From IMG/VR virus record IMGVR_UViG_3300025659_000335, positions 1 to 64,000 of that record: a stretch of DNA of 64,000 bases; one strand, given 5' to 3'. Below, one piece after another: positions 45,327 to 64,000 of this stretch (within the stretch, counting starts at the first letter, position 1; every line of letters begins with the position of its first letter). The position numbers and the translations under genes were made by a program. This stretch comes from a virus. Under the pieces are notes generated by a model. It was not told the origin of the DNA. It saw nothing but the letters and a program-made list of their open reading frames with translations, and did no database searches.

Positions 45327-45328
45327 CT

Positions 45329-46069: not shown

Positions 46070-46071
46070 AT

Positions 46072-48397: not shown

Positions 48398-49110
48398 AAA
48401 ATTTTAGACAAGATTTACAAAAATTCGAACAATTTTTAAAAGATGGAAAACATTTTACCTTTTCTAAATATGCAGATGGCGAGTGGAGAATTTTAGACGG
48501 AGATCATATTGATCTTACTAGAAAAGCCAATGGAGAGTTTAAATATCAACCAGATAATATAGAAGATGAGCTACGGCGTGCTGAGTTATTAAAATCTTTT
48601 CAATATATCCATTCAGATTATTATGTTGGCATAGGGTGTTATTGTTGTATGGGAAATACCTTTTATAGTATGAAAGATCTAAGTAAACAGCCTGTTGAAA
48701 ACCTAACTTGGGCTAATCTTTTTGTTAATGGTAACTATAAATATTACAGATCAACCCTTGTTCCTCTATTTAATGATTATAAAATAATAATGGTTTGTAA
48801 TCATAAAGCAAAATTAGATAAACTACCATTTAAAGTTGAAAAAGATTTTAGAGTTGGAACTAACGCTTGGCTAGATAATAAAGATCTAGTAAAAGAAATT
48901 ATAGAATATAGTAAAGACTTAGAAAATTATTTATTCTTATTCTGTGCAGGGCCTTTTGGAAATATTCTTGCTCATAGGCTACACGAAGCTAACCCTAATA
49001 ATACCTATCTCGATGCTGGGTCAACTTTTGATGTTGAATTATTTGGTGGTGGAACTAGGGGATATCTAATTGGTGCCGACACTTTAAAAAAGAAATGTAT
49101 TTGGAAATGA
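48394..49110 (+). CDS. Putative GT-D-fold glycosyltransferase (DUF1792-like)
   Basis: The 238-residue protein has FTFSKYADGEWRI at about 21-33, which resembles the R-x-G-D-G-E site of the GT-D family (DUF1792). In that family the D-G-E residues hold the metal and the donor. FLFCAGPFGNILAHRLHEAN followed by YLDAGSTFDVELFG in the C-terminal third matches the closing Rossmann element of the same family, where the product end carries a conserved D-x-G. The start overlaps the previous gene by four bases. Assignment to this rarer fold rests on these two motifs. Confidence 0.65.
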   Translation: MKNFRQDLQKFEQFLKDGKHFTFSKYADGEWRILDGDHIDLTRKANGEFKYQPDNIEDELRRAELLKSFQYIHSDYYVGIGCYCCMGNTFYSMKDLSKQPVENLTWANLFVNGNYKYYRSTLVPLFNDYKIIMVCNHKAKLDKLPFKVEKDFRVGTNAWLDNKDLVKEIIEYSKDLENYLFLFCAGPFGNILAHRLHEANPNNTYLDAGSTFDVELFGGGTRGYLIGADTLKKKCIWK

Positions 49111-49967
49111 ACAACATTACAATAGAAAAGAATAAATTATACTTAGTCACTGGTGGCTCTGGATTTCTTGGCGACAGTTTAATAGATAGAATATTACAAC
49201 AAGGAGGTTTGGTTAGGGTATTAGCTCGTAATGAGGGGTCTCTAATTAAATTAAAAATGAAATATCCATCTATTGAAATATTAACTGGAGATATCTCTAA
49301 TAGATTTTCTTGTATACAAGCATTAAAGAACGTAAATGGCATATTTCATCTTGCTGCTTTTAAGCATGTAGGTATGGCAGAAATACAGTCTTTAGAATGT
49401 ATAAATTCTAACGTTATAGGTTCTAGCATTCTATTAGAAGAATCCGCAAATATGGAATTAGATTTTATTTTAGGAATTAGTACTGATAAAGCAGCACAAG
49501 TTGCTGGAGTTTATGGTGCTTCTAAACTTCTTATGGAAAAACTATTTGAGCAGTATGAGAAAATATTTCCAAATACAAACTATAGATTAGTAAGATATGG
49601 TAACATTTTATACTCTACTGGGTCTGTTTTATGTAAGTGGAAAAAATTAATTGAAGAGAATAAACCAATAACTATTACAGATGGTAATGCTACAAGATTT
49701 TATTGGTCAGTAGAACAAGCTGTAGATTTAATATTTGAATGTCTTAAAAATTCAAAAGATTCTAGACTATATTGCCCTACTATGAAATCTGTATCTGTTA
49801 GAAATCTAGCAAAAGCTATGATTAAAAAATATGGAAATAGTAATATTAAAATAATTACTATTGGCCTTCAACCTGGAGAAAATATGCATGAAAAAATTCT
49901 TAAAGAGGGCCCTTATTCTAATGAAGTTGCACAATACACAATTGATGAAATAGTGGAGATGGTATAA
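49107..49967 (+). CDS. NAD-dependent sugar epimerase/dehydratase (CapD/PseB-like)
   Basis: A 287-residue short-chain dehydrogenase when started at ATG 49107, which overlaps the previous stop as ATGA. TGGSGFLG (15-22) is the NAD-binding loop and GDISN with GIFHLAAFKHV follow. ISTDKAAQVAGVYGASK (about 124-140) contains the S-T-D-K plus Y-x-x-x-K active site typical of UDP-N-acetylhexosamine 4,6-dehydratases such as PseB/CapD. LQPGENMHEKIL is the usual C-terminal G-E-K/N-x-H-E motif. It lacks the membrane helices of long CapD forms. It probably makes a 4-keto or inverted sugar nucleotide used by the surrounding transferases. Confidence 0.85.
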   Translation: MNNITIEKNKLYLVTGGSGFLGDSLIDRILQQGGLVRVLARNEGSLIKLKMKYPSIEILTGDISNRFSCIQALKNVNGIFHLAAFKHVGMAEIQSLECINSNVIGSSILLEESANMELDFILGISTDKAAQVAGVYGASKLLMEKLFEQYEKIFPNTNYRLVRYGNILYSTGSVLCKWKKLIEENKPITITDGNATRFYWSVEQAVDLIFECLKNSKDSRLYCPTMKSVSVRNLAKAMIKKYGNSNIKIITIGLQPGENMHEKILKEGPYSNEVAQYTIDEIVEMV

Positions 49968-51956: not shown

Positions 51957-52412
51957 ATGGCACTACGTGGTAATGAATTAGAGAAGGCTGCTAATAAAGC
52001 AAACATCAGTTATAGAAAAGCAGACGAAGCTTTAATATTAAAAGTACCAACGGGTATAACTATAACTAAACATGGAGCAATCCCACAAAAGTCTACAGTA
52101 GATTTTGTAGGAATATTAAAAGGTGGAAAGTTTATAGCATACGATGCTAAAGAAACTAAAAGTAAAACATCATTTCCACTAAAAAATATACACCAGCACC
52201 AATACGAGTATTTAAAGTATGCAAATAAACTTGGTGGGGTAGCGTTTTTTCTAATTCATTTTACTACACTGTATGAGTCAAAGGCTTTTATAGTTCCAAT
52301 GGATCTTATTATAAGATACTGGGAACGTGAAACAAGAAAGTCTATACCAATTACCGAATTTAAAAAAGAATGGTTAGTAGAGATCAACGAGTATCTCAAA
52401 GATATATTATGA
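51957..52412 (+). CDS. RecU-like Holliday junction resolvase
   Basis: A 151-residue nuclease. GNELEKAANK (5-14), KSTVDFVGILKGGKFI (45-60) and YDAKETKSK (62-70) follow the RecU order: an N-terminal Glu, S-T-x-D-F-x-G, then D-A-K-E-T. D49, D63 and K65 are the likely metal and catalytic residues. NIHQHQYEYLKYA supplies the conserved H-Q. It is the second possible junction-resolving nuclease in this window after the one at 36982. RecU-type enzymes resolve branched DNA before packaging or during repair. The start has no strong AGGAG site; GGGTTA lies close upstream. Confidence 0.82.
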   Translation: MALRGNELEKAANKANISYRKADEALILKVPTGITITKHGAIPQKSTVDFVGILKGGKFIAYDAKETKSKTSFPLKNIHQHQYEYLKYANKLGGVAFFLIHFTTLYESKAFIVPMDLIIRYWERETRKSIPITEFKKEWLVEINEYLKDIL

Positions 52413-52648
52413 TTACTAAAGAACATGTAGGCTGTATAATTCAGCCAGTACTAAAAGTAAATATCGCAGTTGCCTATGTAGGGGAACTTGCAAATATAAA
52501 TGACGAAGGAATATTTACACTTATACCTTTTGATCAAACAAAAGATCCTAAACTTTCAGAAGAAGTGATAGGGCCTTGTGTAAGATACCCAATGTTATTA
52601 GACGTAAAAGAAATTTTAGCAGTAGTGCTATTAAAGAAAGTAAAGTAA
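52409..52648 (+). CDS. Small hypothetical protein
   Basis: This 79-residue protein is not recognised. Its start is set at ATG 52409 because that codon overlaps the RecU-like stop as ATGA, the linkage common in this operon. It is beta-rich (HVGCIIQPVLKVNIAVAYV, EILAVVLLKKVK) and has no Cys cluster or membrane helix. It lies between RecU-like and dUTPase genes. No function can be given. Confidence 0.5.
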   Translation: MITKEHVGCIIQPVLKVNIAVAYVGELANINDEGIFTLIPFDQTKDPKLSEEVIGPCVRYPMLLDVKEILAVVLLKKVK

Positions 52649-53098
52649 ATGGCTGAACAAAAAAATAAAAAACTTGTAATTAAATATAAGTTATTGGATA
52701 ATAAAGCAAAAGCACCGCAAAAAGGATATGACACCTCAGCAGGTATAGATCTTTGTGCATTATATAAATACAGATTAACAGGACATTCGACTAAAGTTTT
52801 ACAAACAGGCATTGCTGTAGAAATACCAAAAGGATGGTATGGACAACTCCACGATAGAAGTGGTCTGGGGTCAACTACCACTTTAAAAGTTAAAGCAGGA
52901 GTCATAGACTCTGAATACCGTGGAGAGATAGGTATTATATTAAATAATACAGGACCATATCCACTTATTATCGAAGAGGGAGAAAGTATAGCTCAAATGG
53001 TTATATTACCTGTTCCCGAAATTACTTTAAAGGAAACAGACGAATTGTCGAAAACAGATAGGGGAACAAAGGGATATGGTTCAACCGACTCAGCATAG
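52649..53098 (+). CDS. dut: dUTPase (dUTP diphosphatase)
   Basis: The 149-residue trimer-type enzyme hydrolyses dUTP to dUMP, keeping uracil out of DNA and feeding dTMP synthesis. All five motifs are visible: AGIDL (31-35), DRSGLG (69-74), AGVIDSEYRGEI (83-94, with catalytic D87), GESIAQMVILP (about 113-123) and RGTKGYGSTD (about 138-147). Motif 5 has Tyr in place of the usual Phe. It sits directly before the ribonucleotide reductase gene, and the reductase start lies inside its last 23 bases. Confidence 0.93.
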   Translation: MAEQKNKKLVIKYKLLDNKAKAPQKGYDTSAGIDLCALYKYRLTGHSTKVLQTGIAVEIPKGWYGQLHDRSGLGSTTTLKVKAGVIDSEYRGEIGIILNNTGPYPLIIEEGESIAQMVILPVPEITLKETDELSKTDRGTKGYGSTDSA

Positions 53099-55037
53099 AG
53101 CTTTTTATCTATCTGACACTTTTATAGACGAGTTTAAAGGTAGTCAACCTAAGTGGGGACCACTTGGGTACGTAACATACAAACGAACTTACGCCAGAAA
53201 AAGAGATGATGGGACAACAGAAGAATTCTGTGATACTTTAAGACGTGTGGTAGAGGGTACATTTAATATGCAAAAAACGCATATTATAAAAAATAGTTTA
53301 AGCTGGAATAATGTCCAAGCCCAAAGAACCGCACAAGCTATGTACCGGGCAATGTGGGACTTTAGGTTTCTACCTGCCGGTAGAGGGCTATGGGCTAACG
53401 GAACTAATTATGCAGAAAATAAAACAGCAGCAGCTTTGTTTAACTGCGCCATGATTAGTACAAACGACATAGCTAAACGTGGGCCTGAAATTTATGAATT
53501 TATAATGGACGCGTTAATGCTTGGAGTGGGAGTAGGATTCGATACTTTAGGAACAGGGAAATTAGAGATACAAACTCCAGAAATAACTAACGGATTAGTA
53601 TATAGTATTCCTGATACTAGAGAAGGGTGGGTTGAATCTGTAGGATTAATTCTAAATGCCTACTTTAATGGTGGCCCATTACCTACATTTGAGTATGATC
53701 AAATAAGAGCTTATGGAGAGCCTATTAAAGGATTTGGTGGTACTGCTAGTGGCCCAGAACCATTAATAGTTTTACATACTACTATTCAAAAACATTTTGA
53801 AGGCCGTGAAGGTGAAGAAATTACTTCTAGTGATATAGTAGACATAGAAAACTATATTTCGAAATGTGTAATAGCTGGTAATGTAAGACGTTCTGCTGCT
53901 CTAGCTTTAGGTGACCCATTAGATAAAGAGTATATGGAACTAAAGCATGATGAAGAAAAATTAAAGTCACATAGGTATGGAAGTAATAATGCTATAGCTT
54001 GTACGATAGGCATGGACTATTCAGAGGCTACTAAAAATACAATAAAACAAGGTGAGCCTGGGTATCTGTGGTTAGAGAACGCAAGATGGAATGGTCGTAT
54101 GGGCGAGTGGTGTGATGATTCTTTTGTTATGGGTGTTAATCCTTGTGGGGAAATCTTCCTCGAATCAGGTGAACTATGTAATCTAGTAGAAACCTTCCCA
54201 GCTAATCATGAAACTTTGGCTGAGTATAAACGCACACTTAAGCTAGCTTATTTATATGCAAAGACTATGACTCTAGCTAAAACACATTGGCCAGAGACTA
54301 ATGCCAAGATGCTTAAGAACAGACGCATAGGTGTATCACAATCAGGTATTATACAGGCGTTCCGTAAACATGGTCGCAGAGAGATGTTAAAATGGAGCGA
54401 CGAATCTTACAAGCATCTAAGAGAGCTTGATAAAATCTTCTCTGACTGGATGGCTATTCCGACTAGTAAGAAAATTACTACAGTAAAACCATCTGGTACG
54501 GTATCTCTTTTATGTGGAGCCACTCCTGGTATACATTATCCAGAAAATAAGTATTATATTAGACGTATTAGATTCTCTAATACTTCAGAGCTAATCCCCA
54601 TACTAAGGGAAGCTGGATATAAAATTGAAGATGACGTATATGACTCAGGTGGGAAAACCTTAGTTGTAGAGTTCCCAGTAGAGGAACAATTTTATGAGAA
54701 ATCTAAATATGATGTAACTCTGTGGGAACAGTTAGAAAATACTGCGCAATACCAGCAGTACTGGGCGGACAATGCAGTTAGTAATACTATCACATTTCAA
54801 GAGAATGAAAAGAAAGATCTCCCTCGCGCACTTGAGTTATATGAAACTCGTTTAAAGAGTGCGTCTTTCTTACCGTTAGGTACTCATTCATATGAGCAGG
54901 CTCCATACGAAGCTATTACCAAGGAACAATATATTGAAATGAAGAGTAACTTAAAAGAATTAGACTTCAGTTCAATTAATATTGATGGCAAAGGATTGAA
55001 ATATTGCGATGGAGATAACTGTACAATAACAACTTAG
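53076..55037 (+). CDS. nrdJ: Adenosylcobalamin-dependent (class II) ribonucleotide reductase
   Basis: A 653-residue monomeric class II reductase that makes deoxynucleoside triphosphates using B12. FLPAGRGLWANGT matches the family signature. Cysteines follow the Lactobacillus leichmannii enzyme exactly by spacing: C at about 123 (FNCAMIST), about 357 and 368 (NPCGEIFLESGELC, eleven residues apart as in Cys408/Cys419), and a C-terminal pair five apart (KYCDGDNC, as in Cys731/Cys736). The protein is shorter than the 740-residue type enzyme and no small subunit gene is needed. Its start overlaps dUTPase by 23 bases. The host or environment must supply cobalamin. Confidence 0.92.
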   Translation: MVQPTQHRAFYLSDTFIDEFKGSQPKWGPLGYVTYKRTYARKRDDGTTEEFCDTLRRVVEGTFNMQKTHIIKNSLSWNNVQAQRTAQAMYRAMWDFRFLPAGRGLWANGTNYAENKTAAALFNCAMISTNDIAKRGPEIYEFIMDALMLGVGVGFDTLGTGKLEIQTPEITNGLVYSIPDTREGWVESVGLILNAYFNGGPLPTFEYDQIRAYGEPIKGFGGTASGPEPLIVLHTTIQKHFEGREGEEITSSDIVDIENYISKCVIAGNVRRSAALALGDPLDKEYMELKHDEEKLKSHRYGSNNAIACTIGMDYSEATKNTIKQGEPGYLWLENARWNGRMGEWCDDSFVMGVNPCGEIFLESGELCNLVETFPANHETLAEYKRTLKLAYLYAKTMTLAKTHWPETNAKMLKNRRIGVSQSGIIQAFRKHGRREMLKWSDESYKHLRELDKIFSDWMAIPTSKKITTVKPSGTVSLLCGATPGIHYPENKYYIRRIRFSNTSELIPILREAGYKIEDDVYDSGGKTLVVEFPVEEQFYEKSKYDVTLWEQLENTAQYQQYWADNAVSNTITFQENEKKDLPRALELYETRLKSASFLPLGTHSYEQAPYEAITKEQYIEMKSNLKELDFSSINIDGKGLKYCDGDNCTITT

Positions 55038-55039
55038 GT

Positions 55040-55055
55040 TATTTTGGTATAAGAA
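55040..55055 (+). promoter_or_regulatory. Conserved 16-base motif TATTTTGGTATAAGAA (copy 2)
   Basis: Identical over 16 bases to 32163-32178. It begins two bases after the reductase stop and is followed within 40 bases by two hairpins. If it is a promoter, the transcript would be a short structured RNA or read through into the operon at 55155. Confidence 0.4.
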
Positions 55056-55059
55056 GAAT

Positions 55060-55083
55060 AACTAGGCGACATCGCTTAGTTTT
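55060..55083 (+). terminator. Hairpin with T-rich tail, possible terminator
   Basis: AACTAGGC, loop GACATC, GCTTAGTT (one G-T wobble) followed by TTATATT. The stem is short and the T run weak, so it may be a minor terminator or part of a short RNA rather than the main stop. It is the first of two tandem hairpins after the reductase gene. Confidence 0.45.
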
Positions 55084-55092
55084 ATATTGAAC

Positions 55093-55127
55093 GGGGGAGA
55101 AGCAAATTGCTTCTCTCCCTTATTTTT
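55093..55127 (+). terminator. Rho-independent terminator after the reductase gene
   Basis: GGGGGAGAAGC (from 55093) pairs with GCTTCTCTCCC (to 55119) around a short AAATT loop, with one mismatch, followed by TTATTTTT. It marks the end of the dUTPase-reductase unit. Confidence 0.8.
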
Positions 55128-55154
55128 ACATTTATAAAGGACTTAATTCGTACA

Positions 55155-55526
55155 ATGCATGAACTAAAAATTCGTTACATCAAGTGCAAAAAGTGTGACC
55201 ACATTCATTATATTGAAACATGTGTTAGGGATCAGAACCCTTCCTGTTTCAAATGTGGCCACTCAGAGTTTACTTCAAAGTTAACCAAGCAGGACCTGTT
55301 TGAAGCTCGCAGATCTCCTCAGAACTGTGTTTGCAACCAAGCACTACAGGCAGAGCTTGAAGAAACTACCAGAAATATAGCTATTACTTTGCATAAGAAG
55401 TATCAGGGTGCAGAGCTAATTAAAGCTATCGCAGACACTATGATGGCGTGCATTAATTCAACTAGACAAAACGCTGTGCAATTAGCAGGCCCTTTCTTTA
55501 ATAATCAAACCGATAATAATAAATGA
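55155..55526 (+). CDS. Zinc-ribbon protein upstream of the Ubl operon
   Basis: The 123-residue protein starts at ATG 55155; an earlier in-frame ATG at 55107 lies in the terminator hairpin and would prepend a hydrophobic stretch from non-coding sequence, so it was rejected. AGGA lies 13 bases upstream. KCKKCDHIHYIETC and SCFKCGHSEF form a C-x-x-C ... C-x-x-C zinc ribbon (about 11-42), and a helical C-terminal part with AELEETTRNIAITL follows. The gene overlaps the next by four bases and heads the operon that ends with Ubl, JAMM and E1. A role as an adaptor or DNA-binding protein is possible but not shown. Confidence 0.65.
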   Translation: MHELKIRYIKCKKCDHIHYIETCVRDQNPSCFKCGHSEFTSKLTKQDLFEARRSPQNCVCNQALQAELEETTRNIAITLHKKYQGAELIKAIADTMMACINSTRQNAVQLAGPFFNNQTDNNK

Positions 55527-55888
55527 ACGATAAAGATTTTTTAAACATTGGAGTAGGACGCTCCAATAAGACAGTAACAGTCATAAATATTGACCAAGAA
55601 GAAGTTAATTTACCGAGTGGTCCTAGCAGTAAAGCCATTTTTACAGTCCGCGATGCAGAAGGAAGAGAGTTCAAGATTAGTGACCTTCTTCTAGAGGATC
55701 GTGGAGAATCTAAAAAAGCAGGACTTTGGATCAATATAAATGACGATGGAGAACTATCCAGTTATACTGGGTTAGCGAAATTAATTAAATTCTACGAAGT
55801 TAACTCATTACAGGAATTAATAGGTAAAGAGGTAAACGCAGATAATGACGATAATGGATTCTTAGTACTAAGTATCCTTAAAAACTAA
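55523..55888 (+). CDS. Hypothetical beta-rich protein of the Ubl operon
   Basis: This 121-residue protein is not recognised. The first 90 residues read as beta strands (KTVTVINIDQEEVNLP, AIFTVRDAEGREFKISDLLL), with an OB-fold-like or SH3-like alternation, then a short helix (YTGLAKLIKFYEV) and a final strand. It overlaps the zinc-ribbon gene by four bases and is separated from the 792-residue gene by 19 bases. No catalytic motif is seen. Because it lies in an operon with a ubiquitin-like system it deserves structural comparison. Confidence 0.55.
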   Translation: MNDKDFLNIGVGRSNKTVTVINIDQEEVNLPSGPSSKAIFTVRDAEGREFKISDLLLEDRGESKKAGLWININDDGELSSYTGLAKLIKFYEVNSLQELIGKEVNADNDDNGFLVLSILKN

Positions 55889-55907
55889 AAAAGAAAAAAA
55901 GAAATAT

Positions 55908-58286
55908 ATGAGAATACCGTCCGGTAGATTAAAAGTAATAAACGCATTATATGATCTAGGATTTGAAGAAGCAGACTATGACTTACTTAAAAAGACCTCG
56001 TTTAAGTTTAAGTCAAGCCCAGTATTACAGTCTGGGGATAGTAGTTTAAGAAGTCATATAGGGTTTTTATTTAATACAGGAAAAATGTTAGCTTACCATC
56101 AGTTTTTACTGGATAATGACTATAACTTTACTTCACAGGGTGACGTAACAACTGCTATAGCTAATTACGATTGGGCAAAAGAAATTAATCAAGACATAGG
56201 TGAACTTTTTGAAACTTTGCCAGAAGAGCAAGTTAAAAGTATAAATAAGATGATACCTAAAGGAAAGATAAAATTCTTTTATTCATTGACAAAGACTAAT
56301 AACTATGGAAGTAACTGTCCTATTATTACTGATAAAGACACCTTTATTATTGATTCATTAAAGGATACAGATCTAGCTGATCTTGAAAAGATAAGTAAAA
56401 TTCAAGAACGATTCTCCAGTTATAACTCATTTCTAGATAGAAACAGAGGGTACGGAGAGAACAATAATAAATTTCAGTTATTGGGTACCTGTCATTTTAG
56501 TAATGCACAGGTTGCTCTATCTTATACAAAAAACTTTTATTTTGGCAAAGACTCAACTCTGCCAATAAATAGTTTTGGTAATTGGCTCTTAAGCAGCAGG
56601 CGTGGATATAATTCTAACGCTTCTGGATTAAAGATAAATGAGATAGATTTATTTTTAAAAGAATCTTATACAACAAACTTTGATAAGATTACTACTAAAG
56701 AGCCTACTCCTGAGCAACTAGAGTTATTAAAAGAAAATAACAAGTTTAGATACATACATTCAGTATATGAACATCATAACACTAGATATTGTGTAGTCGG
56801 TAGCTCAAGTACATTTCCTTATTACAACACTCCACGAATTCATAACGCAGCAGAATTTTGTGCAGGAGATTACTTTAGTTGGTTTAAAGTAGAAGCAACT
56901 AGTTCTTGGTATGACTACGCTGATGCTGGACACTTAGTATATTACAAGCTTGGTCCTGATGGTACTGTGGCAAATAGAGGTAATGATGACCCATTACTAA
57001 CGCTGGGTGAAGCTGTATTAACAGACCCTGCCCCGGTTATGCTTAATAAAGTAATAATCGAAAATTATCTAAAGACAAAGGCTAGTGAAGATAGAGTTGT
57101 TGTTTTAGATAATGGTACTTTGAATACTATCTTGAGACTGCACATGAAAAAAGAAGAACGCACTCAAAAAGTAGTTCAAAGTAAAAACATAATGACTAAG
57201 AAGATAACCAAAGTTATTAATAATTTAGAAACAATAAAGAAAACTAAATTAAACGGTATTGATATAACTGAGGACTCTATTAGTTACGCAGGACAAACAC
57301 TTTCTATTGATAAGAATACCTATACAGGGCACGACAGATGGCTTAATGATGTATTTGATAAGATGTTAAGAAACACAGATCCTAATTCCATTGACTGGGA
57401 TCTTGTTTACGCAACATTTTTAAGTTATTTAAGTCTGGGTAGTAAGAGCACCGCTGGTACAATAGGTAACGTTAATTTTAATCTTGAGATAAAATCATCC
57501 ACCTCTACAAGAGGTGTGACCTCTACAAGATACTACATTAATGAAAATCGTATTAATAAGAATGAAGTTGATGAATGTCTCGAGCGAGCTTTGTGCTTTG
57601 AGACCCAGGAGGACTTCGATTATTTCCTAGACTCGGTTAGAAAATGTTCGTTAAAATTACATAAATTACTGCACCGTGGTATTAATATTAGTGGAGTAAG
57701 TGATGTAATGGGGTCATCTCCAGGACATAATAATTACAATCAATTCTCTATAAAATTCCCGATTACTAGAAAAGGTCGTACAACCTCTATGGTTCTAGAT
57801 GGGAACTCATACAGAATTCGTAATACAAATAGATTCTTGACAATATCAAATAAAAGAAGTATTTTAGATGTGGTAGATCTACTACTTAATGAAAAAATAG
57901 TAGAGGGTGTAACCGTAGACGATGTTAAAGATATTATAACTGCTGGACGAAAAGCTTATGTTGAAGCTTTAAAGAAGAGTCAGGAACTACTAACTGACAC
58001 CATTAAGTTATTTAAATTAACAGAGGAAACAAAAGACACCACTAGAGGAAGAGTCAAAGGGTATAAAATAAAAGGCAAAATAAGAACTTACTTTGTTGAA
58101 AAAGGATCATTAGAGCCTGACTCTAATAATCACAATGATTGCAAGGTCTTTGACTACAATTCTGGAAAGTATATTTGTATTGTTGATAAAGGAAATGCTG
58201 CTCAAGTTGGTATGGATAGGCTAGTAAATAGATTATATGCACTACACAACGATGACTTAGTAGCAAAAGAAATAACTACACTTTAA
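55908..58286 (+). CDS. Large protein of unknown function in the Ubl-JAMM-E1 operon
   Basis: The 792-residue product is not recognised. Its visible parts are an N-terminal helical domain (MRIPSGRLKVINALYDLGFE), a middle alpha/beta region including YHQFLLDNDYNFTS and WFKVEATSSWYDYADAGHLV (about 325-345), a helix-rich stretch (about 405-450) and a basic beta-rich part near 610-660 with FSIKFPITRKGRTTSMVLDG. The C-terminus ends in a small domain (KYICIVDKGNAAQVGMD). No Walker, RING, E2-type HPN or protease motif was found by eye. It ends 15 bases before the ubiquitin-like gene and is the natural candidate for substrate, ligase-like partner or effector. Confidence 0.6.
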   Translation: MRIPSGRLKVINALYDLGFEEADYDLLKKTSFKFKSSPVLQSGDSSLRSHIGFLFNTGKMLAYHQFLLDNDYNFTSQGDVTTAIANYDWAKEINQDIGELFETLPEEQVKSINKMIPKGKIKFFYSLTKTNNYGSNCPIITDKDTFIIDSLKDTDLADLEKISKIQERFSSYNSFLDRNRGYGENNNKFQLLGTCHFSNAQVALSYTKNFYFGKDSTLPINSFGNWLLSSRRGYNSNASGLKINEIDLFLKESYTTNFDKITTKEPTPEQLELLKENNKFRYIHSVYEHHNTRYCVVGSSSTFPYYNTPRIHNAAEFCAGDYFSWFKVEATSSWYDYADAGHLVYYKLGPDGTVANRGNDDPLLTLGEAVLTDPAPVMLNKVIIENYLKTKASEDRVVVLDNGTLNTILRLHMKKEERTQKVVQSKNIMTKKITKVINNLETIKKTKLNGIDITEDSISYAGQTLSIDKNTYTGHDRWLNDVFDKMLRNTDPNSIDWDLVYATFLSYLSLGSKSTAGTIGNVNFNLEIKSSTSTRGVTSTRYYINENRINKNEVDECLERALCFETQEDFDYFLDSVRKCSLKLHKLLHRGINISGVSDVMGSSPGHNNYNQFSIKFPITRKGRTTSMVLDGNSYRIRNTNRFLTISNKRSILDVVDLLLNEKIVEGVTVDDVKDIITAGRKAYVEALKKSQELLTDTIKLFKLTEETKDTTRGRVKGYKIKGKIRTYFVEKGSLEPDSNNHNDCKVFDYNSGKYICIVDKGNAAQVGMDRLVNRLYALHNDDLVAKEITTL

Positions 58287-58301
58287 ATAAAGAGAAAAAC
58301 T

Positions 58302-58526
58302 ATGGCAAAAGAAAAAGAAATCACATTAAAGATCGTATCCGCTGAAGGTCACACAGAGTTTCAAGGCACTGGTGCAGAGGCCCTTGCAGAGTTGCAAGAG
58401 CAATGCACAAACAACAGTAAGTGGGCTTATGTAGATGGCCGTCAGGTTAATCCTGACACTGTGGGCATTGAAGATCTTTTAAATGCTGAAGACATCACTT
58501 TAGCTAACACACTAATTGGTGGCTAA
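58302..58526 (+). CDS. Ubiquitin-like protein with C-terminal Gly-Gly
   Basis: A 74-residue protein that fits a beta-grasp fold: ITLKIVSA and HTEFQGTG as the first hairpin, EALAELQEQCT as the helix, KWAYVDGRQVNP as the third strand pair, and ITLANTLIGG as the last strand. The chain ends in Gly73-Gly74 exactly at the stop, so the activated C-terminus needs no trimming. Its neighbours, a JAMM protease and an E1-like enzyme, are the standard partners. The gene is clearly richer in G+C (48% over 58321-58440, counted) than the JAMM gene that follows (35% over 58681-58740), which may reflect strong expression. The stop overlaps the next ATG by one base. Confidence 0.85.
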   Translation: MAKEKEITLKIVSAEGHTEFQGTGAEALAELQEQCTNNSKWAYVDGRQVNPDTVGIEDLLNAEDITLANTLIGG

Positions 58527-58981
58527 TGGAAGTTTTCATTACTCCTGAGATAGTTCAGGAGTTAAAAATATATGGCGATTCAAGCCCCGTGCACGAGGTG
58601 TGCGGGGCTTTTATCGGCACTAAAATCAAAAACGAATGGCACATAGAAAAGTTTATACCACTTACCAATGTAATAGCAGGACTCAATGGTAAAGAAGATT
58701 ACCAGCCTCACCCAGAAGAATGGTTAAATGTTATAAAAGAGACCACTCATTATAACGATGATGCTAAGTATGATTTTATAGGGGTGTACCATACACATCC
58801 TAATAACAAACCATATCCCTCAATAACAGACGTTCGAGAGGCCGGTTATAAGGGAATATACATTATATATTCTCCTAAATATAAGACCTTTGGTGTTTAC
58901 TATTATAATGGTGATCGGGAACATCTTATGTGGGTACCAGCTATATGTCATGACATAGATGAAAGAGAACTAGTAACTTGA
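58526..58981 (+). CDS. JAMM (JAB1/MPN+) metalloprotease
   Basis: A 151-residue zinc isopeptidase. The JAMM residues occur in the exact family order: E24 in HEVCGAF, then H89-x-H91 with P92 (GVYHTHP), seven residues, S99, two residues, D102 (PSITDVREAG). The spacing H-x-H-x(7)-S-x(2)-D is perfect. It is a single-domain MPN+ protein without an appended coiled coil. Since the ubiquitin-like partner already ends in Gly-Gly, removal from targets is likelier than precursor maturation. Its ATG overlaps the Ubl stop by one base, and its stop overlaps the E1-like start, so the three are made together. Confidence 0.92.
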   Translation: MEVFITPEIVQELKIYGDSSPVHEVCGAFIGTKIKNEWHIEKFIPLTNVIAGLNGKEDYQPHPEEWLNVIKETTHYNDDAKYDFIGVYHTHPNNKPYPSITDVREAGYKGIYIIYSPKYKTFGVYYYNGDREHLMWVPAICHDIDERELVT

Positions 58982-59574
58982 AAAAAATATTAATTGTAGG
59001 TGCTGGTGGAATAGGAAGTTGGCTTGCTGCTAATTTATACGACTTAATTTGTTGGGAACAATTACCTGACAGTAACGTAGAAATAACTATAGCAGACGAT
59101 GACCACGTAGAAGCAAAAAATATTTCTTATCAAAATTTTGAAGACGAAGATATAATGGACCCTAAAGCAGCAGTATTACATGCTAGATATGGGTTTAAAG
59201 CTTTAGAAAAAAGAATTACAGATGAAAGAGATTTATACGGATATGATTGTATTGTAAGTGCCGTGGACAACCCAAAGTTCAGGCGGCTCTTATTTGAATA
59301 TTGTCATGTTTATAGTCGAACCCATTGGATCGATTTAAGATCAGAAGGTAGAACAATAGCTGCCTTTACTACATCTGAAAAGAATACTTTGGAAAAAATG
59401 TTAGATACATTAGGTCCAGAGGATGCGGAAGATGGAAGTTGTCAGCTACAGTTTGAGCTAGATAATGATATCATCCAACAAGGAAATAAAATTGTGGCTG
59501 TGATAGGATCTCAGTATATCCTTAATTGGCATAGATTTGACACTAGTCCACCCGTATTTTCTTTTAATTTTTAA
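58978..59574 (+). CDS. E1-like (ThiF/MoeB-type) Ubl-activating enzyme
   Basis: The 198-residue Rossmann enzyme begins at TTG 58978, overlapping the JAMM stop. GAGGIGSW (8-15) is the ATP-binding loop, DDDHVEAKNISYQNF (40-54) is the D-x-V-x-x-x-N-x-x-R-Q region with Tyr51 in place of the usual Arg, K63 is the conserved Lys, and SAVDNPKFRRLL has catalytic D97. A cysteine at C155 (EDGSCQLQF) lies in the loop where the E1 thioester Cys is found. It is shorter than typical 240-residue MoeB and lacks a Zn tetracysteine. It should adenylate the Gly-Gly end of the Ubl. A promoter for the following genes begins two bases after its stop. Confidence 0.85.
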   Translation: MKKILIVGAGGIGSWLAANLYDLICWEQLPDSNVEITIADDDHVEAKNISYQNFEDEDIMDPKAAVLHARYGFKALEKRITDERDLYGYDCIVSAVDNPKFRRLLFEYCHVYSRTHWIDLRSEGRTIAAFTTSEKNTLEKMLDTLGPEDAEDGSCQLQFELDNDIIQQGNKIVAVIGSQYILNWHRFDTSPPVFSFNF

Positions 59575-59575
59575 C

Positions 59576-59604
59576 TTGACTAATCAAGTATAATATACTA
59601 TATT
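59576..59604 (+). promoter_or_regulatory. Candidate promoter of the holin-like/sigma/polymerase genes
   Basis: TTGACT (59576-59581), 17-bp spacer, TATATT (59599-59604). It starts two bases after the stop of the E1-like gene and precedes a 70-base leader with a hairpin. It is the best match to the sigma-70 pattern in the window. Confidence 0.65.
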
Positions 59605-59625
59605 GATTAAGGAAATAACTTCCTA

Positions 59626-59643
59626 CGTTACCTGTAGGTAACG
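59626..59643 (+). promoter_or_regulatory. Leader hairpin in front of the holin-like gene
   Basis: CGTTACC (59626-59632), loop TGTA, GGTAACG (59637-59643): a perfect seven-base dyad. It lies about 12 to 20 bases downstream of the expected transcription start, so it would either fold in the RNA or be a protein-binding dyad on DNA. No T run follows, so it is not a terminator. Confidence 0.55.
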
Positions 59644-59673
59644 AACTTATAACATATTGGAAAATAACAAATT

Positions 59674-59949
59674 ATGTTAGACTTTGACTCAATTTATGCG
59701 ATTGCCGTGGTTGGTATTCCTATTGTTACTAACTATGTAAAAAGCGCTGTTCCTAAGAGATTGTGGCCTTTAATCCCATTTGCACTTGGCGCATTAGTTG
59801 CCGGTATCTGGGGATCAGAACAAGGCGTACAAATGCAAGCGCTGCTTACTGATGCGTTCTTACTAGGTGGCGGTGGTACTATGCTATATAGTGCTCATAA
59901 AGCTGCTACTAATGGCGGAAAGCCTGAAGTTACTAAGAAGAGAAAGTAA
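59674..59949 (+). CDS. Holin-like small membrane protein
   Basis: The 91-residue protein has three hydrophobic segments: SIYAIAVVGIPIVTNYV (6-22), WPLIPFALGALVAGIWG (31-47) and LLTDAFLLGGGGTMLYSA (57-74). It ends with a Lys/Arg-rich tail (KPEVTKKRK). Size, three membrane passes and basic C-terminus fit a class I holin, which opens the inner membrane for the lysis enzyme. No endolysin gene lies next to it, so another membrane role is possible. It has its own promoter and terminator, is richer in G+C than most of its neighbours, and is probably strongly expressed. Confidence 0.6.
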   Translation: MLDFDSIYAIAVVGIPIVTNYVKSAVPKRLWPLIPFALGALVAGIWGSEQGVQMQALLTDAFLLGGGGTMLYSAHKAATNGGKPEVTKKRK

Positions 59950-59972
59950 AATAAACAACCTATAGGCCCATG

Positions 59973-60002
59973 AAGAGGAGTCAGAAATGGCTCCTCTTTT
60001 TT
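59973..60002 (+). terminator. Strong Rho-independent terminator
   Basis: AAGAGGAGTCA (59973-59983), GAAA tetraloop, TGGCTCCTCTT (59988-59998) followed by TTTT: an 11-bp stem with one G-T wobble and a stable GNRA loop. It closes the holin-like transcript, so the sigma gene beyond may depend on partial read-through or another promoter. Confidence 0.92.
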
Positions 60003-60026
60003 ATATATTAAAATAGAAAGAACTTA

Positions 60027-60842
60027 ATGTCAGCCTTAACGCAATATTTAAACGAAATCAAAAACAATAAAGTTCTGACTAAAGAAGAAGAATTAGAACT
60101 TGCAAGAAAAGCACAAGCTGGAAACGAACATGCAAAGAATAAACTAATCACTGCTAATTTGCGTTTTGTTGTAAGTGTCGCTAAACAGTATCAAGGCCAA
60201 GGTATTCAATTAGAAGACTTAATTGGTGAGGGTAATTTAGGACTTATGAAAGCGTTAGATAGGTTTGATACATCTAAATCGTTTAAGTTTATTACTTATG
60301 CGGTGTGGTGGATTAGACAATCTATTATTAATGCTATTCATGAAAATGCAAGACTTATTAGATTACCGGCTAACAAGATCGGCCTAGTTGGTAAGATAAA
60401 TAAAATCAAAAGTAGTTTAGAACAAACTTTAGGCAGAGACCCATCTTTTGATGAACTACATCATGAACTACAACAACATGAAATCTTCGATGATATAAAT
60501 TCATTATTGTTTCACTATGTAGACATTGATAAGAAAACAGAAGAAGGAACAAACATCCATGAAATAATTCCTAGCTCAGATGACCCTCCTAGCACAGATG
60601 TTGAGCGTGAATATTTAACGGATGATATTCTAGATATTTTAAAAGATTTTACCGAACGTGAACAGCAGATAATTAAAATGTACTTTGGTATCGGAGAGAT
60701 ACGTAATTATACATTAGAAGAAGTCGGTGATGATTTTGGATTAACTAGAGAACGTATAAGACAAATTAAAAAACAAGTAATTGAAAAGTTGCAGATGAAT
60801 CATCGCAAAACTAAATTACAAATACATATGCAAGAAGATTAA
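60027..60842 (+). CDS. RNA polymerase sigma factor, primary type
   Basis: The 271-residue protein carries all expected sigma-70 regions without region 1.1. Region 2 runs ANLRFVVSVAKQYQ, DLIGEGNLGLMKALDRFD and FKFITYAVWWIRQSI (about 43-100), including the W-W-I-R-Q of region 2.4. Region 3 (about 112-160) and region 4 follow, with EEVGDDFGLTRERIRQIKKQ (about 231-250) as the helix-turn-helix. It resembles the shortened primary sigma factors of bacteria more than T4 gp55. It stands alone downstream of a terminator and 26 bases upstream of nothing but the polymerase gene, with which it is contiguous (TAA then ATG). It probably directs phage middle or late transcription. Confidence 0.9.
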   Translation: MSALTQYLNEIKNNKVLTKEEELELARKAQAGNEHAKNKLITANLRFVVSVAKQYQGQGIQLEDLIGEGNLGLMKALDRFDTSKSFKFITYAVWWIRQSIINAIHENARLIRLPANKIGLVGKINKIKSSLEQTLGRDPSFDELHHELQQHEIFDDINSLLFHYVDIDKKTEEGTNIHEIIPSSDDPPSTDVEREYLTDDILDILKDFTEREQQIIKMYFGIGEIRNYTLEEVGDDFGLTRERIRQIKKQVIEKLQMNHRKTKLQIHMQED

Positions 60843-62096
60843 ATGTTTATTTCAAAACCAGAAGATGTGCCAATAGTAGAGAGGTTTATAAAAACTAGAG
60901 GTATAATCGGGTATGATGTAGAAACTAATGGACTAGATCCTCATACGAATGAAGTACTTCTAATACAAATAGGCACCGAGCATACTCAGTATGTACTAGA
61001 TGTTGCGAGACTTGGTACTAGTATATTTCCTGTTCTAGAATTACTAGCAAAGCCTGATACTGCTAAAGTAGCACACAACTCTAAGTTTGACTATGTTATG
61101 ACCAGGGCTAATTTTGACATTGATCTTTTAAATATGAAAGACACATTATTAGCAGATTACTTGTTGACACAGGGTAAAAACATACCAAAACATAGTTTTG
61201 ACGCAGTAGTAGATAAATATCTTGGAGAGACTGTCTCTAAGGATTTACAGAAAAGCTTCGTAGGTATGAAGTTTGGTGATCAATTTTCAGAGGAACAAAT
61301 TAAGTATGCTGGTGATGACGTTAAATACTTATTACCGCTGCATACTAAATTGGACAAGTTTATCAGACAAAGAGATATGAGTAAACTAGCCCATTTAGAA
61401 AATTCTACTGTGCGGGCTACGGCTGAGTTAGAATTGAATGGTATACACTTAGATAGAAAAAGATGGCTTGCCTTAAAAGATATAGCATTAAAGGCCGCTA
61501 TTGATTTAAAGGTTGAGCTGGATGAAGCGTTCGCTCCACACTGCTCAGTAGATCTTTTTGGGTCACCTACGGTAAATTATGATTCTCCTAAACAAATGTT
61601 GGAATTATTGCCTAAGATATGTAATGTAACATTAACCTCTACTAATAAACAAGAACTTGAAAAACAAAATCATGCAGTAATTAAACTATTACTAGAGTAC
61701 AGAAAACGAAAGAAATTAGTTACTACATACGGACAGGAATTTCTAGATAATAATGTAAACTCTGTAACAGGTAGAGTTCATTCTAGTTTCTGGCAATTAG
61801 GTAACACAGACTCTGGTAGATATGCCAGTACCAAACCTAATATGCAGAATATACCAGCAGGTGCTGTATATCGTGCTGCTTTTACAGCACAAGATCTAGA
61901 CTATAGAATAGTCGCAGCGGACTTCGCAAATCAGGAACTTAGACTACTAGCTCATATGAGTGAAGAAGATAAGTTTATTGAATGTTTGAGAACTGGAAAA
62001 GATTTGCATGCCTACTGTGCCGCTATCCTGTTCAATAGAAACTATGATAGTATTACTAAAGAAGAGCGTGATGCCGCTAAAGCCATCAATTTCGGT
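60843..62096 (+). CDS. polA: DNA polymerase I family polymerase, exon 1
   Basis: The first 418 codons of a family A polymerase. The 3'-5' exonuclease motifs are GYDVETNG (Exo I, about 24-31), AHNSKFDYV (Exo II) and YAGDDVKYL (Exo III). Motif A of the polymerase domain is VAADFANQELRLLAHM, and motif B begins RDAAKAINFG at the end of this exon. The continuous frame then runs MNNE and stops, in the middle of the O helix, because a group I intron interrupts the gene after the GGT codon at 62094-62096. The 5'-3' exonuclease domain of bacterial Pol I is absent, as in other phage polymerases. Joined to exon 2 the product is about 585 residues. Confidence 0.92.
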
Positions 62097-62638
62097 ATGA
62101 ATAATGAATAAAATAAATAATGCCGAAAACAAACTCGCCAAATTCGGGGAAACCTCAGCACATAATGGTGGTGGCAATCCCGAGCTAAGCCTGAAGAAGC
62201 AGGAAAGTGTAGAGACTAGACGACGAGTATGTAAAAAGTGTGACAATGTACTTCCAAAACGTAGACAAAAATTCTGTTCAGATAAATGTAGAAACGCATT
62301 TAACTCTCACGCGTGGAGAATTAAAAAAGGTTTAATTAAAAAACCATATAGTGGTTCTGGTGGTAATCAATCAGGAAAAGATAACCACATGTATAAAAAC
62401 GGAATAAGAAATTTTAGTTTACGGGCTTTTGAATATTATGGTAAAACTTGTAATCGATGTGAGTCAGAAAAAAATATCCTGACTCATCATAAAGATCATA
62501 ATCGACAAAATAATAATATAGAAAATTTAGAAGTTCTATGTAAGAAATGTCATCAAAAACACCATTGCACACGAGACCAAGTAACAGGTCGTTACATAAA
62601 GGGATAGTCCGGGCCTCTGGTAAACCAGAGGGTTCCTG
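62097..62638 (+). ncRNA. Self-splicing group I intron in polA
   Basis: The 542-base intron has the main hallmarks. P1: exon TTTCGGT (62090-62096) pairs with guide GCCGAAA (62122-62128), with the terminal U-G wobble at the splice site. P10: TAAATAA (62114-62120) pairs with exon-2 TTATTTA. Core elements are P (AATTCGGGGAAACC, 62141-62154), Q (CAATCCCGAGC, 62175-62185), R with GACTA (62214-62218) and S with TAGTC (62605-62609) forming P7. CCTCTGG/CCAGAGG (62615-62632) makes P9. The intron ends in G at 62638. The HNH endonuclease gene lies in the P8 loop region. It resembles the polymerase introns of Bacillus phages SPO1/SP82. Confidence 0.9.
62104..62607 (+). CDS. Intron-encoded HNH homing endonuclease
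   Basis: A 167-residue frame nested in the intron. The C-terminal HNH motif is THHKDHNRQNNNIENLEVL followed by CKKCHQKHH (about 126-155), and a zinc finger lies at CKKCDNVLPKRRQKFCSDKC (about 43-62). TCNRCESEKN gives a further C-x-x-C in the HNH core. The first 40 codons cover the P1-P7 core, so the true start may be internal; no ribosome binding site precedes ATG 62104. The stop TAG lies inside the S element. Like I-HmuI of SPO1 it should cut intronless polymerase genes and promote intron spread. Confidence 0.85.
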   Translation: MNKINNAENKLAKFGETSAHNGGGNPELSLKKQESVETRRRVCKKCDNVLPKRRQKFCSDKCRNAFNSHAWRIKKGLIKKPYSGSGGNQSGKDNHMYKNGIRNFSLRAFEYYGKTCNRCESEKNILTHHKDHNRQNNNIENLEVLCKKCHQKHHCTRDQVTGRYIKG

Positions 62639-63142
62639 GTTATTTACGGAATGGGTGCTAAGAGATTATCAGCTGTTCTAAAAATTTCAATACCTGAAGC
62701 ATCTGGCTTATTAAGATCTTACTTCTTAACCTTCCCTAAAATCGCTAAACTAATTAAAGATTTTACCGACAGTGCAGAAGATTTAAGATACGCATTTAGC
62801 CCGCTTGATGGTAGACGAAGAGATTTAAGTTCAATGGATTTTGATAATCCAAAACATCATAGCCATGCTATGAACATTGCTAAAAACTTACCATTCCAGG
62901 GTACTGGTTCTAGTGTTACTAAACGAGCTTTATGGAAAACGAGTGAATCAATTAGAGATAACAAATATGATGCTATGATAATCAACGCAGTTCACGACGA
63001 AATTTTATTAGAAGTACATAAGGATGAAGTTGATGAAGTCGCGGGCATGTTATCATTAGAAATGATAAAAGCGTTTAATCATTATGCTCCGTCAGTGCCT
63101 ATGGAAGTAGAACCTGTGATCGGAGACTGTTGGATTCACTAA
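62639..63142 (+). CDS. polA: DNA polymerase I family polymerase, exon 2
   Basis: The C-terminal 167 codons. Read from 62639 the exon begins GTT ATT TAC GGA ATG (VIYGMGAKRLS), which joins AKAINFG of exon 1 into the O-helix phrase NFG-VIYGMGAKRLS. Phase is preserved (exon 1 is 1254 bases). FTFPKIAKLIKDF-type helices and LQGTGSSVTK-like palm elements follow, and motif C is INAVHDEILLEV (about residues 513-524 of the joined protein). The ATG at 62651 is internal and not a start. It ends 12 bases after the presumed TTG start of the next gene. Confidence 0.9.
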   Translation, partial: VIYGMGAKRLSAVLKISIPEASGLLRSYFLTFPKIAKLIKDFTDSAEDLRYAFSPLDGRRRDLSSMDFDNPKHHSHAMNIAKNLPFQGTGSSVTKRALWKTSESIRDNKYDAMIINAVHDEILLEVHKDEVDEVAGMLSLEMIKAFNHYAPSVPMEVEPVIGDCWIH

Positions 63143-63416
63143 GTCATTTTGAGGATATGCAGAAAAAGCTATACAGCTTAGCGAAGAAGAAAAACCACGA
63201 CTACGGCTCAGCCAATATTGAGATACTTGGAGAGAAGGGCTGTTTTGTTAGAATGTCTGATAAATAAATAGACTAAAACAACTAATGTGGGATAATCAAG
63301 AAGCTGAAGTAAGCGATGAAAGCATAGACGACTCATTAGCAGACCTCGCTAATTACGCAATAATAACTTTACTGTTGCGTAAAGACAGGTGGGGAAAAGA
63401 CGACACTTTTAAATAA
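63130..63416 (+). pseudogene. DUF1599-like nucleotide-modification-associated gene, interrupted by a one-base frameshift
   Basis: From TTG 63130 (CGGAG just upstream) or ATG 63157 the frame gives KKKNHDYGSANIEILGEKGC and FVRMSDK, then TAA at 63265. Shifting back one base at 63264 continues INRLKQLMWDNQEAEVSDES and DLANYAIITLLLRKDRW to TAA 63414-63416. The joined reading is the DUF1599 pattern (K-N-x-D-Y-G ... R-x-x-D-K-x-x-R-L ... D-x-x-D-x-A-N-Y). The -1 frame has a TAA immediately before the junction, so the simplest cause is loss of one A from an AAAA run (GATAAAATAAAT to GATAAATAAAT), by mutation or assembly error. Restored length is about 95 residues. Confidence 0.75.
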
Positions 63417-63420
63417 AGAA

Positions 63421-63452
63421 AAAGAGAGACACATTTGTGCCTCTCTTTTTTT
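63421..63452. terminator. Bidirectional terminator between convergent genes
   Basis: AAAGAGAGACACA (63421-63433) pairs with TGTGCCTCTCTTT (63436-63448) with one mismatch; T's follow to 63452. The A-rich run before the stem gives U's on the other strand. It serves the rightward genes and the leftward gene ending at 63478. Confidence 0.85.
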
Positions 63453-63477
63453 AGCCTAAAATTTAAATCTCTAACTA

Positions 63478-64000
63478 CTAAAGTTTAATAGGTACAACTC
63501 TTGATGCACGTAAGCCAGCATTCTCTAAAAGAATAGTCTGGTTCGCGGCAACACTAAACTGGTGATTTTGGATATAACACTCTTCCAAGTAGAAACCACC
63601 CCATGATTCATTCTCTTTATCATGTATAACAAATCCTAAACCTAACGGCTTATTGAAGAACGATGATGCTAGGTTAATGAAGAACTCTTCGCCTAATTCA
63701 GGGTCAGACGCATCAAAGTCTGCACCGGGCATATCATCTGGATTTGTAATTGCATCATACTCTGTAGTACCAAGATTCTCGTAAAGAGCCCTTAATAACG
63801 ACTTACCATCAAATAGAACTCTAGTAAGCCCGGCTTGTACGAAAGTACGCCCTGGAATAAAGTATGGTGCGCGAGATCCAATTTCAAATAACTGCTGTAG
63901 CTGTTTATTCTGAGTTACTGTAGCATTTTCCACTAATCCAATAGGGATTAAATTTTCAATATTTTCAGGTAACTCGCTAGGACCAGCTAATACAACGCAA
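63478..64000 (-). CDS. Virion structural protein, partial (5' end off the window)
   Basis: A leftward frame open from the right edge to TAA at 63478, at least 173 residues. A GTG at 63933 could serve as a start but the frame continues upstream without a stop to 64000 with sensible protein sequence (VLAGPSELPENIENLIPIGL), so the gene enters from the right. The visible part has GSRAPYFIPGRTFVQAGLTR and ends FSVAANQTILLENAGLRASR. The sequence has the look of a myovirus virion protein (tail or neck), but no specific family is recognised. It converges on the polymerase block at the terminator. Confidence 0.65.
   Translation of the reverse strand, partial: CVVLAGPSELPENIENLIPIGLVENATVTQNKQLQQLFEIGSRAPYFIPGRTFVQAGLTRVLFDGKSLLRALYENLGTTEYDAITNPDDMPGADFDASDPELGEEFFINLASSFFNKPLGLGFVIHDKENESWGGFYLEECYIQNHQFSVAANQTILLENAGLRASRVVPIKL

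Follow-up and report, generated by a model that had tools for sequence, protein, structure and literature searches.

Ubiquitin-like conjugation in bacteria is known mainly as a host defense against phages. In haloarchaea, SAMP conjugation proceeds, to our knowledge, without a recognized E2. Four-part bacterial operons encoding a ubiquitin-like protein (Ubl), a JAB protease, an E1, and an E2-like protein have also been predicted, as laid out in the part of the 2006 survey by Iyer and colleagues that treats them (Iyer 2006; PMC1779556). Here, we describe a set of the same four kinds of genes in a virus. Specifically, the first 64,000 nt of the 87.5-kb virus record IMGVR_UViG_3300025659_000335 (positions 1-64,000; the window, meaning the whole stretch that was analyzed) encode a Ubl, a JAMM metalloprotease, an E1-like adenylating enzyme, and a large virus-specific protein that we call BIG. 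Sequence evidence establishes the four genes and their motifs, and shows that the genes are inherited together. With moderate confidence, we interpret the cassette as a virus-encoded, four-part system for Ubl conjugation and deconjugation.

Four genes of a viral cassette

All four genes lie on the plus strand. BIG (792 aa; 55908-58286), which has homologs in related phages and in archaeal-virus loci, ends in a candidate E2-like domain (residues 667-792; 57906-58283) that contains Cys757. It is followed by the Ubl (74 aa, C-terminus NTLIGG; 58302-58526), the JAMM/MPN+ metalloprotease (151 aa; 58526-58981), and the E1/ThiF-like adenylating enzyme (198 aa, TTG start; 58978-59574). The Ubl and JAMM frames overlap by 1 nt (TAATG), and the JAMM and E1 frames by 4 nt (TTGA). 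An earlier note on this DNA had recognized three overlapping genes at 58302-59574, and had assigned to them a beta-grasp protein of 74 residues ending in Gly-Gly, a perfect JAMM motif, and an E1-like adenylating enzyme. All of these assignments hold, and a phage-borne Ubl/JAMM/E1 set is well supported. The set is not, however, a mere trio, as BIG had been missed.

The structure prediction proposed for the Ubl was run. The AlphaFold model, built from a 19-row alignment, has a pLDDT (predicted local distance difference test) of 83.9, a pTM (predicted template modeling score) of 0.65, and the beta-grasp order b-b-a-b-b-a-b. In Foldseek searches with this model, SUMO, NEDD8, and ubiquitin-like domains account for most of the top rows, of which the best has an E-value of 2.5e-3 and none is at or below 1e-3. 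The best VIA match has a Z of 5.4, in the modest range, and protein L, which also has the beta-grasp fold, is among the matches. The predicted fold is thus beta-grasp at the level of the model. Scans of the Ubl sequence with Pfam, NCBIfam, and other model libraries returned no credible family match, and its profile matched nothing credible among Pfam or PDB sequences. Across the 19 rows, G16, W41, D45, G46, G73, and G74 are invariant. Two kinds of other candidate Ubls were rejected: ME3 gene 129, which lacks a terminal Gly-Gly and has no family match, and short ORFs (open reading frames) after the E1 in several archaeal-virus loci that end in GG plus one residue. The latter were not counted because they carry CPxC-type motifs and a conserved Ubl lies upstream. 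In several archaeal-virus loci, short proteins of this CPxC type that end in GG plus one residue are encoded between E1 and JAMM, as at 8588-8827 of locus L026.

The two enzymes are recognizable by family models. The JAMM protein has every motif residue (E24, H89, H91, S99, and D102) and matches Pfam Prok-JAB at 1.4e-13. The haloarchaeal desampylase model matches it at 6.8e-17 with 61.6 bits, below the cut-off of 130, and its relatives of solved structure include the JAMM1 and AMSH-like proteases. The E1 matches Pfam ThiF at 1.8e-15. Its best NCBIfam family is PRTRC_ThiF, at 48 bits relative to a cut-off of 144.75. Conserved elements of the E1 are GxGGIGS, DxD, K63 (invariant over 20 rows), D97-N98, and S-C155-Q.

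Conservation in phages and putative archaeal viruses

A scan of IMG/VR with the JAMM protein found 11 contigs, which fall into four types (the window type, L016, L018, and L007/L022). In every type, the genes are, in order, ribonucleotide reductase (RNR), BIG, Ubl, JAMM, E1 and, beyond one or two short genes, a sigma factor and DNA polymerase A (PolA); in this branch, family scans were run on the genes of the window, and those of the relatives were assigned by similarity, with the sigma-like ORF assigned by eye. One relative is 45% identical in the Ubl, 43% in JAMM, and 54% in E1, and it has the same order and the same Gly-Gly end, which two further types likewise keep. Because order and Gly-Gly end persist in diverged relatives, chance is ruled out for the gene set. 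Throughout this phage branch, Gly-Gly is the exact C-terminus of the Ubl, and Gly-Gly is retained in 19/19 alignment rows. A 179.9-kb IMG/VR contig encodes E1, JAMM, and BIG proteins identical to those of the window. A separate phage collection held no near nucleotide match to window positions 52000-64000. Moreover, tblastn against it gave no match for the window JAMM, an archaeal-type Ubl, the C-terminus of the window BIG, or a full archaeal-type BIG; at that sensitivity, these proteins are therefore absent from the collection. The host in this branch is presumably a bacterium, because the window encodes a sigma-70 factor and a holin-like gene.

The cassette is encoded by phages, as proposed earlier, but it is not confined to one of them. 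An E1 alignment search yielded 59 viral loci, 11 from the phage branch and 48 others (the E1-first set). When used alone as a query, the archaeal-type Ubl was found in 196 stretches of viral contigs. The best 80 of these 196 make up the Ubl-first set, which shares at least 11 contigs, judged by name, with the E1-first set. Near-copies are included in the counts for both sets; profiles were built from the E1-first loci, and rows from those loci match by construction. In Ubl-first loci whose downstream DNA reaches 8.9 kb or more, an ORF profile search found BIG, E1, and JAMM together in 70/71, the exception (L145) lacking only JAMM. The nine loci with less downstream DNA comprise two that are complete, two with BIG and E1, two with BIG only, and three with none. 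The order Ubl, BIG, E1, JAMM on a single strand is common to all 72 complete archaeal-virus loci. From the E1 side, Ubl, BIG, and JAMM accompany the enzyme in 36/36 loci that have at least 7.8 kb upstream and at least 2.5 kb downstream; each of the other 23 lacks this much DNA on at least one side, and JAMM is nonetheless found in 22. BIG homologs of 370-513 aa occur in all 71 Ubl-first loci with sufficient downstream DNA. This co-occurrence in both the Ubl-first and the E1-first loci makes BIG as tightly linked to the cassette as are the enzymes.

Catalytic motifs are retained alongside gene content. In the Ubl-first set, the metal motif H-x-H...S-x-x-D is present in 72/72 JAMM proteins. The E1s carry the motifs of the ThiF superfamily: G-x-G-G-I-G-S in 73/75, DN in 75/75, and the cysteine of SCQ in 75/75. 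The Ubls end in Gly-Gly followed by zero to two residues in 80/80, with Gly-Gly as the exact end in 7 and covered by a varied tail in 73. A covered Gly-Gly would fit trimming by the JAMM protease, as in ubiquitin-like precursors.

The surroundings differ between the two virus groups. In the archaeal viruses, BIG and E1 are separated by a TFIIB-like gene in 72/72 complete loci, and Ubl and BIG by RNR in 39/72. All five TFIIB-like genes tested match TFIIB or TFIIB zinc-ribbon models, each below the Pfam cut-off, whether narrowly or by a wide margin, and one of the five also matches sigma-70 region 4 above its cut-off. A chaperonin gene was confirmed in L046, the single one tested. Tailed viruses of marine Poseidoniales have been reported to carry TFB and chaperonin (PMC10768690), and we infer that the archaeal-type loci belong to viruses of that kind. 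One relative comes from a cellular bin: a 13.7-kb contig binned as Nanoarchaeia (L172, 5854-8985) encodes a 715-aa BIG (YLCIID), an E1 with 47% identity, and a 113-aa protein that has the GH and W residues of the Ubl and ends in KGG. The contig could derive from a mobile element or from a virus binned in error. The scan that found it gave two other matches, which cover approximately half and a quarter of the E1 query.

BIG, and comparison of the cassette with described systems

The earlier note recognized no E2-like gene. That statement is probably wrong, because BIG is co-inherited with the other genes, carries an invariant cysteine, and is the best E2-like candidate. In the phage relatives, BIG homologs of 690-754 aa occupy the same position upstream of the Ubl. 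The N-terminal parts of BIG are large and variable, while a C-terminal domain is common to the homologs. In 146/146 homologous ORFs, copies included, the cysteine is kept (140 by a motif pattern, and 6 by eye, which likewise have [IV]-C-[IV]-D-N). The surrounding residues are mostly GPICIDN in the archaeal-virus homologs and YICIVD in those of the phages. GPICIDN resembles both the NGKICIG that surrounds the cysteine of PRTRC protein B and the classical E2 motif G-x-I-C-L-D. E2s have four strands, with the active cysteine between the last strand and a helix. The structure model of BIG, which covers residues 401-792, places the cysteine (Cys357 in model numbering) directly after a strand and before a helix: a long helix is followed by strands 305-311, 314-322, 327-331, 347-349, and 354-356, the last two segments being three residues each. 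Values of pLDDT are 71-89 for model residues 281-330, 51-64 for 331-350, and 76 for 351-360. For model residues 287-391, the best VIA rows are UEV domains (4zny, 3r3q, and 1uzx; TSG101 and Vps23) with Z of 4.4 each, root-mean-square deviations of 4.0-4.5, and 89-93 residues aligned. Lower rows include kinetochore and Fanconi proteins, which we take to have RWD or UBC folds. Many rows for model residues 1-47 were set aside, as they match helices only. The invariant cysteine and the UEV domains as best structural matches underlie our view that the C-terminal domain of BIG is likely E2-like; the position of the cysteine after a strand supports E2 chemistry, without proving it.

Among described systems, the closest is PRTRC (row 6d of Iyer 2006). 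It contains the same four kinds of parts, its E1 is homologous by profile, and its JAMM and E1 genes are adjacent. Such trios occur in PRTRC loci, as pointed out earlier, and PRTRC_ThiF is the best-matching E1 family. The set does not appear to be PRTRC proper, however: the E1 scores far below the family cut-off, and profile comparison found no similarity of the Ubl to protein C. The cassette Ubl ends in Gly-Gly plus zero to two residues, whereas three annotated PRTRC protein C rows have no Gly-Gly, and hhalign of the Ubl to a protein C profile (seven rows, four of them guesses) gave a probability of 0.1%. The putative E2-like part is the end of a protein of 370-792 aa in the cassette, a difference from PRTRC. 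Finally, the window E1 has 198 aa rather than the 251-310 aa of 14 plasmid rows, carries N-x-x-Y-Q, and lies on a branch of its own.

Searching plasmids by tblastn with the E1 gave 57 matches; of the 30 listed, 12 are annotated as PRTRC ThiF and most others as ThiF family. The best E-values among those listed belong to E1s of Pseudanabaena plasmids, annotated merely as ThiF family, and a Mov34/MPN gene adjoins the E1 at the Pseudanabaena plasmid locus. We compared cassette E1s with 17 others (7 annotated PRTRC, 7 other plasmid, and 3 large-phage). A single profile-to-profile comparison by hhalign gave an E-value of 3.6e-29 and a probability of 99.8%. In a tree of 48 sequences, the cassette E1s (26 archaeal-virus, 4 phage, and 1 from the Nanoarchaeia metagenome-assembled genome) are split from the 17 with support of 100/100; this tree has long branches, a bootstrap that the tool warned was unsettled, and an arbitrary root. 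On these sequence comparisons, the cassette E1 is a separate branch that is homologous to PRTRC ThiF.

Other systems share fewer features with the cassette. Type II CBASS (Cap2/Cap3) and Bil/Bub have the E1 fold and a JAMM protein, and the E1 profile finds chains of Cap2 and BubCD. The cassette differs from them in having no E1-E2 fusion and in being virus-encoded rather than a host defense. No CD-NTase was seen among the seven scanned neighbors of the cassette (family scans in the window covered these seven and ten further proteins). The haloarchaeal SAMP/UbaA/HvJAMM1 system likewise has a Gly-Gly Ubl, an E1, and a desampylase-like JAMM, but the cassette has BIG in addition, and its E1 scores 20 bits relative to the UbaA cut-off of 450. 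In the cultured Bacteroides phage crAss001 (L185, 247-4657), a ThiF-like E1, gp76, adjoins the JAMM-motif protease gp77, both already annotated as ThiF and metalloprotease, and the N-terminus of gp79 looks beta-grasp-like by eye. A phage-borne E1 and JAMM are therefore not unique to the cassette. Unlike the cassette E1s, gp76 has NMSGQ and a long N-terminal part, and the locus gave no match to the cassette Ubl or BIG profiles. In Bacillus phage KLEB27-3 (L010, 3660-6708), Prok-E2_D-like and Prok-JAB-like proteins, both just below their Pfam cut-offs, adjoin a ThiF-like E1; this is a PRTRC-like set in a phage.

Parts of this picture have been described previously. The RaFAH paper, in the passage concerned, counts a MoeB/ThiF-family gene among the auxiliary genes found most often in archaeal viruses and ties it to ubiquitination (PMC8276007); that passage covers the E1-like gene only, and the Ubl, JAMM, BIG, and the phage branch are unnamed in it. 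Among the matches listed in searches of open-access papers other than preprints, none describes a viral four-gene cassette. The terms "ubiquitin" and "ThiF" are absent from a magrovirus paper (PMC10160649) and from PMC5332604. A paper on archaeal tailed viruses (PMC8651126) mentions a shared adenylyltransferase family but not ubiquitin, ThiF, JAB, or JAMM, and a review of jumbo phages (PMC7824862) does not use the terms E1-like, ThiF, or JAB.

Competing explanations and genomic surroundings

If the cassette conjugates and deconjugates its Ubl, the E1 would adenylate the C-terminal Gly-Gly of the Ubl and, probably via Cys155, pass the Ubl to Cys757 in the E2-like domain of BIG. The virus-specific N-terminal part of BIG would choose the target. 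The JAMM protease would remove the tag and, in the archaeal-virus branch, would probably also trim the one or two residues past Gly-Gly. We speculate that the targets are components of the transcription or nucleotide machinery that neighboring genes encode, or the host counterparts of that machinery. A connection with transcription is suggested because two unrelated initiation factors, a sigma factor and a TFIIB-like protein, adjoin the same cassette; a shared operon of unrelated early functions could also give this gene order. Combining these elements, one can picture an ancient core cascade of E1, E2, Ubl, and deconjugase in tailed viruses of bacteria and marine archaea, with a new type of E2 that bears its own targeting region; by tagging the initiation machinery of the virus or the host, this cascade might set the timing of gene expression. 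We hold this fuller scenario tentatively and consider it rather unlikely.

Several observations weigh against conjugation and deconjugation by the cassette. Function and targets are read from gene position only. The arginine of N-x-x-R-Q is absent from cassette E1s: the window E1 has Tyr51, and tyrosine is present in all 4 phage-branch E1s and in 73/75 Ubl-first E1s, with the other 2 having neither residue. This count was taken from the Ubl-first set because the E1-first scan was picked with a pattern, KN[IL]SYQN, that itself contains the tyrosine; without the 11 contigs shared with that set, it is 62/64. Comparison E1s from plasmids and large phages have arginine at the site in 15/17 (the site is undisplayed for Alk and Tsac). 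Arginine here is a phosphate-binding residue, and its replacement could therefore mean an altered or lost E1 activity and speaks against a direct extrapolation from MoeB or ThiF. The remaining observations concern BIG. Its model is poor, with a mean pLDDT of 54.8, and has five strand segments in the cysteine domain versus the four of E2s. The Z of the UEV matches is within the range that VIA calls common, and chains with no known link (1ylx, 1oac, and 5kew, among others) also match this domain, with Z of 2.3-3.0. Foldseek with the BIG model returned nothing significant, and comparisons of BIG with Pfam, NCBIfam, and PDB sequences returned nothing credible. The comparison of the cysteine domain with a PRTRC protein B (Prok-E2_D) profile was not significant, with a probability of 0.3% and a score of 13.7, relative to 10.8 for a reversed-alignment control; the protein B alignment has nine rows, four of them annotated as B, and the Rub row, without the cysteine pattern, was dropped.

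The uncertainty about the E2 assignment gives room to the notion that BIG is a dedicated substrate or scaffold, with the E1 loading the Ubl onto it directly, JAMM reversing the modification, and BIG switching between states. The nonsignificant profile homology and weak fold match to E2s would agree with this notion, as would a linkage as strict as that of the enzymes and the large, variable N-terminal parts. Nevertheless, we judge it unlikely, given that the invariant cysteine sits between the last strand and a helix, as it does in E2s, that UEV domains are the best matches, and that the cysteine context resembles those of PRTRC protein B and classical E2s. The Ubl could instead be a sulfur carrier of the ThiS/MoaD/Urm1 kind, thiocarboxylated after activation by the E1 and supplying a viral enzyme or the thiolation of tRNA, in which case no protein would be tagged. 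Archaeal Ubls can serve both as sulfur carriers and as tags, ThiF and MoeB models both match the E1, and 1 of the 19 Ubl rows matches ThiS weakly (E 0.047, among chance-level families). We find this explanation quite improbable: JAMM and an invariant-cysteine protein with UEV matches are inherited with the Ubl, tails past Gly-Gly would require a protease, and no rhodanese-type partner or other sulfurtransferase was found among the seven scanned neighbors in the window.

Two further explanations draw on the JAMM protein. The protease might block ubiquitin-like host defenses such as CBASS Cap2/Cap3 or Bil while the viral E1 and Ubl serve as decoys or competitors. To this we give little credence, since the whole set, and not the protease alone, is present in fixed order across many viruses, while counter-defense genes are typically patchy in distribution. 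In its favor, Cap3 and defense JAB models, including those of PADLOC, match the JAMM protein weakly, the E1 resembles Cap2, and PADLOC models match the E1 weakly. JAMM-rich Borg elements have, moreover, been proposed to counter host tagging, in the relevant part of PMC12660748. Very improbable, in our estimation, is a Ubl/JAB pair for tail assembly like gpI and gpK of phage lambda. We know of no E1 in lambda-type pairs, and Pfam finds no NlpC domain in the JAMM protein. The baseplate gene (20117-21409) is far away, and the position of the cassette, with RNR on one side and the sigma-factor and PolA genes on the other, makes a role in tail assembly less likely. PHROG "tail protein" families do match the JAMM protein, the best at 5.6e-08, and lambda-type Ubl/JAB pairs are described in the pertinent section of Iyer 2006 (PMC1779556).

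Irrespective of which explanation holds, viruses possess the whole set, in synteny, in two very different virus groups. If proteins are conjugated, the cassette would represent a viral system of post-translational control in microbes and a source of a new type of E2. It would also provide a test case for the origin of E1-E2-Ubl-JAMM cascades before eukaryotes. The parallel in crAss001 offers a cultured phage for related experiments.

In the window, Pfam identifies RNR, sigma-factor, and PolA genes as neighbors of the cassette. The sigma-70 family factor (60027-60842, plus strand; Sigma70_r2 8.4e-21) lies outside the cassette as counted here. Immediately downstream (60843-63142), PolA is split between ORFs 60843-62111 and 62651-63142, which flank an ORF for an HNH endonuclease (62104-62607), as in an intron or homing-endonuclease insertion; in an Rfam scan of the window, no family reached its gathering score. 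The RNR genes of L007 (16-2952) and L018 (1692-4673) have an insert of several hundred residues relative to that of the window; in L007, the insert follows GVNPC and looks intein-like by eye. Finally, a glycosyltransferase gene (44052-45326) and a nucleotide-sugar epimerase gene (49095-49967), within window positions 44052-49967, suggest a sugar-modification cluster.

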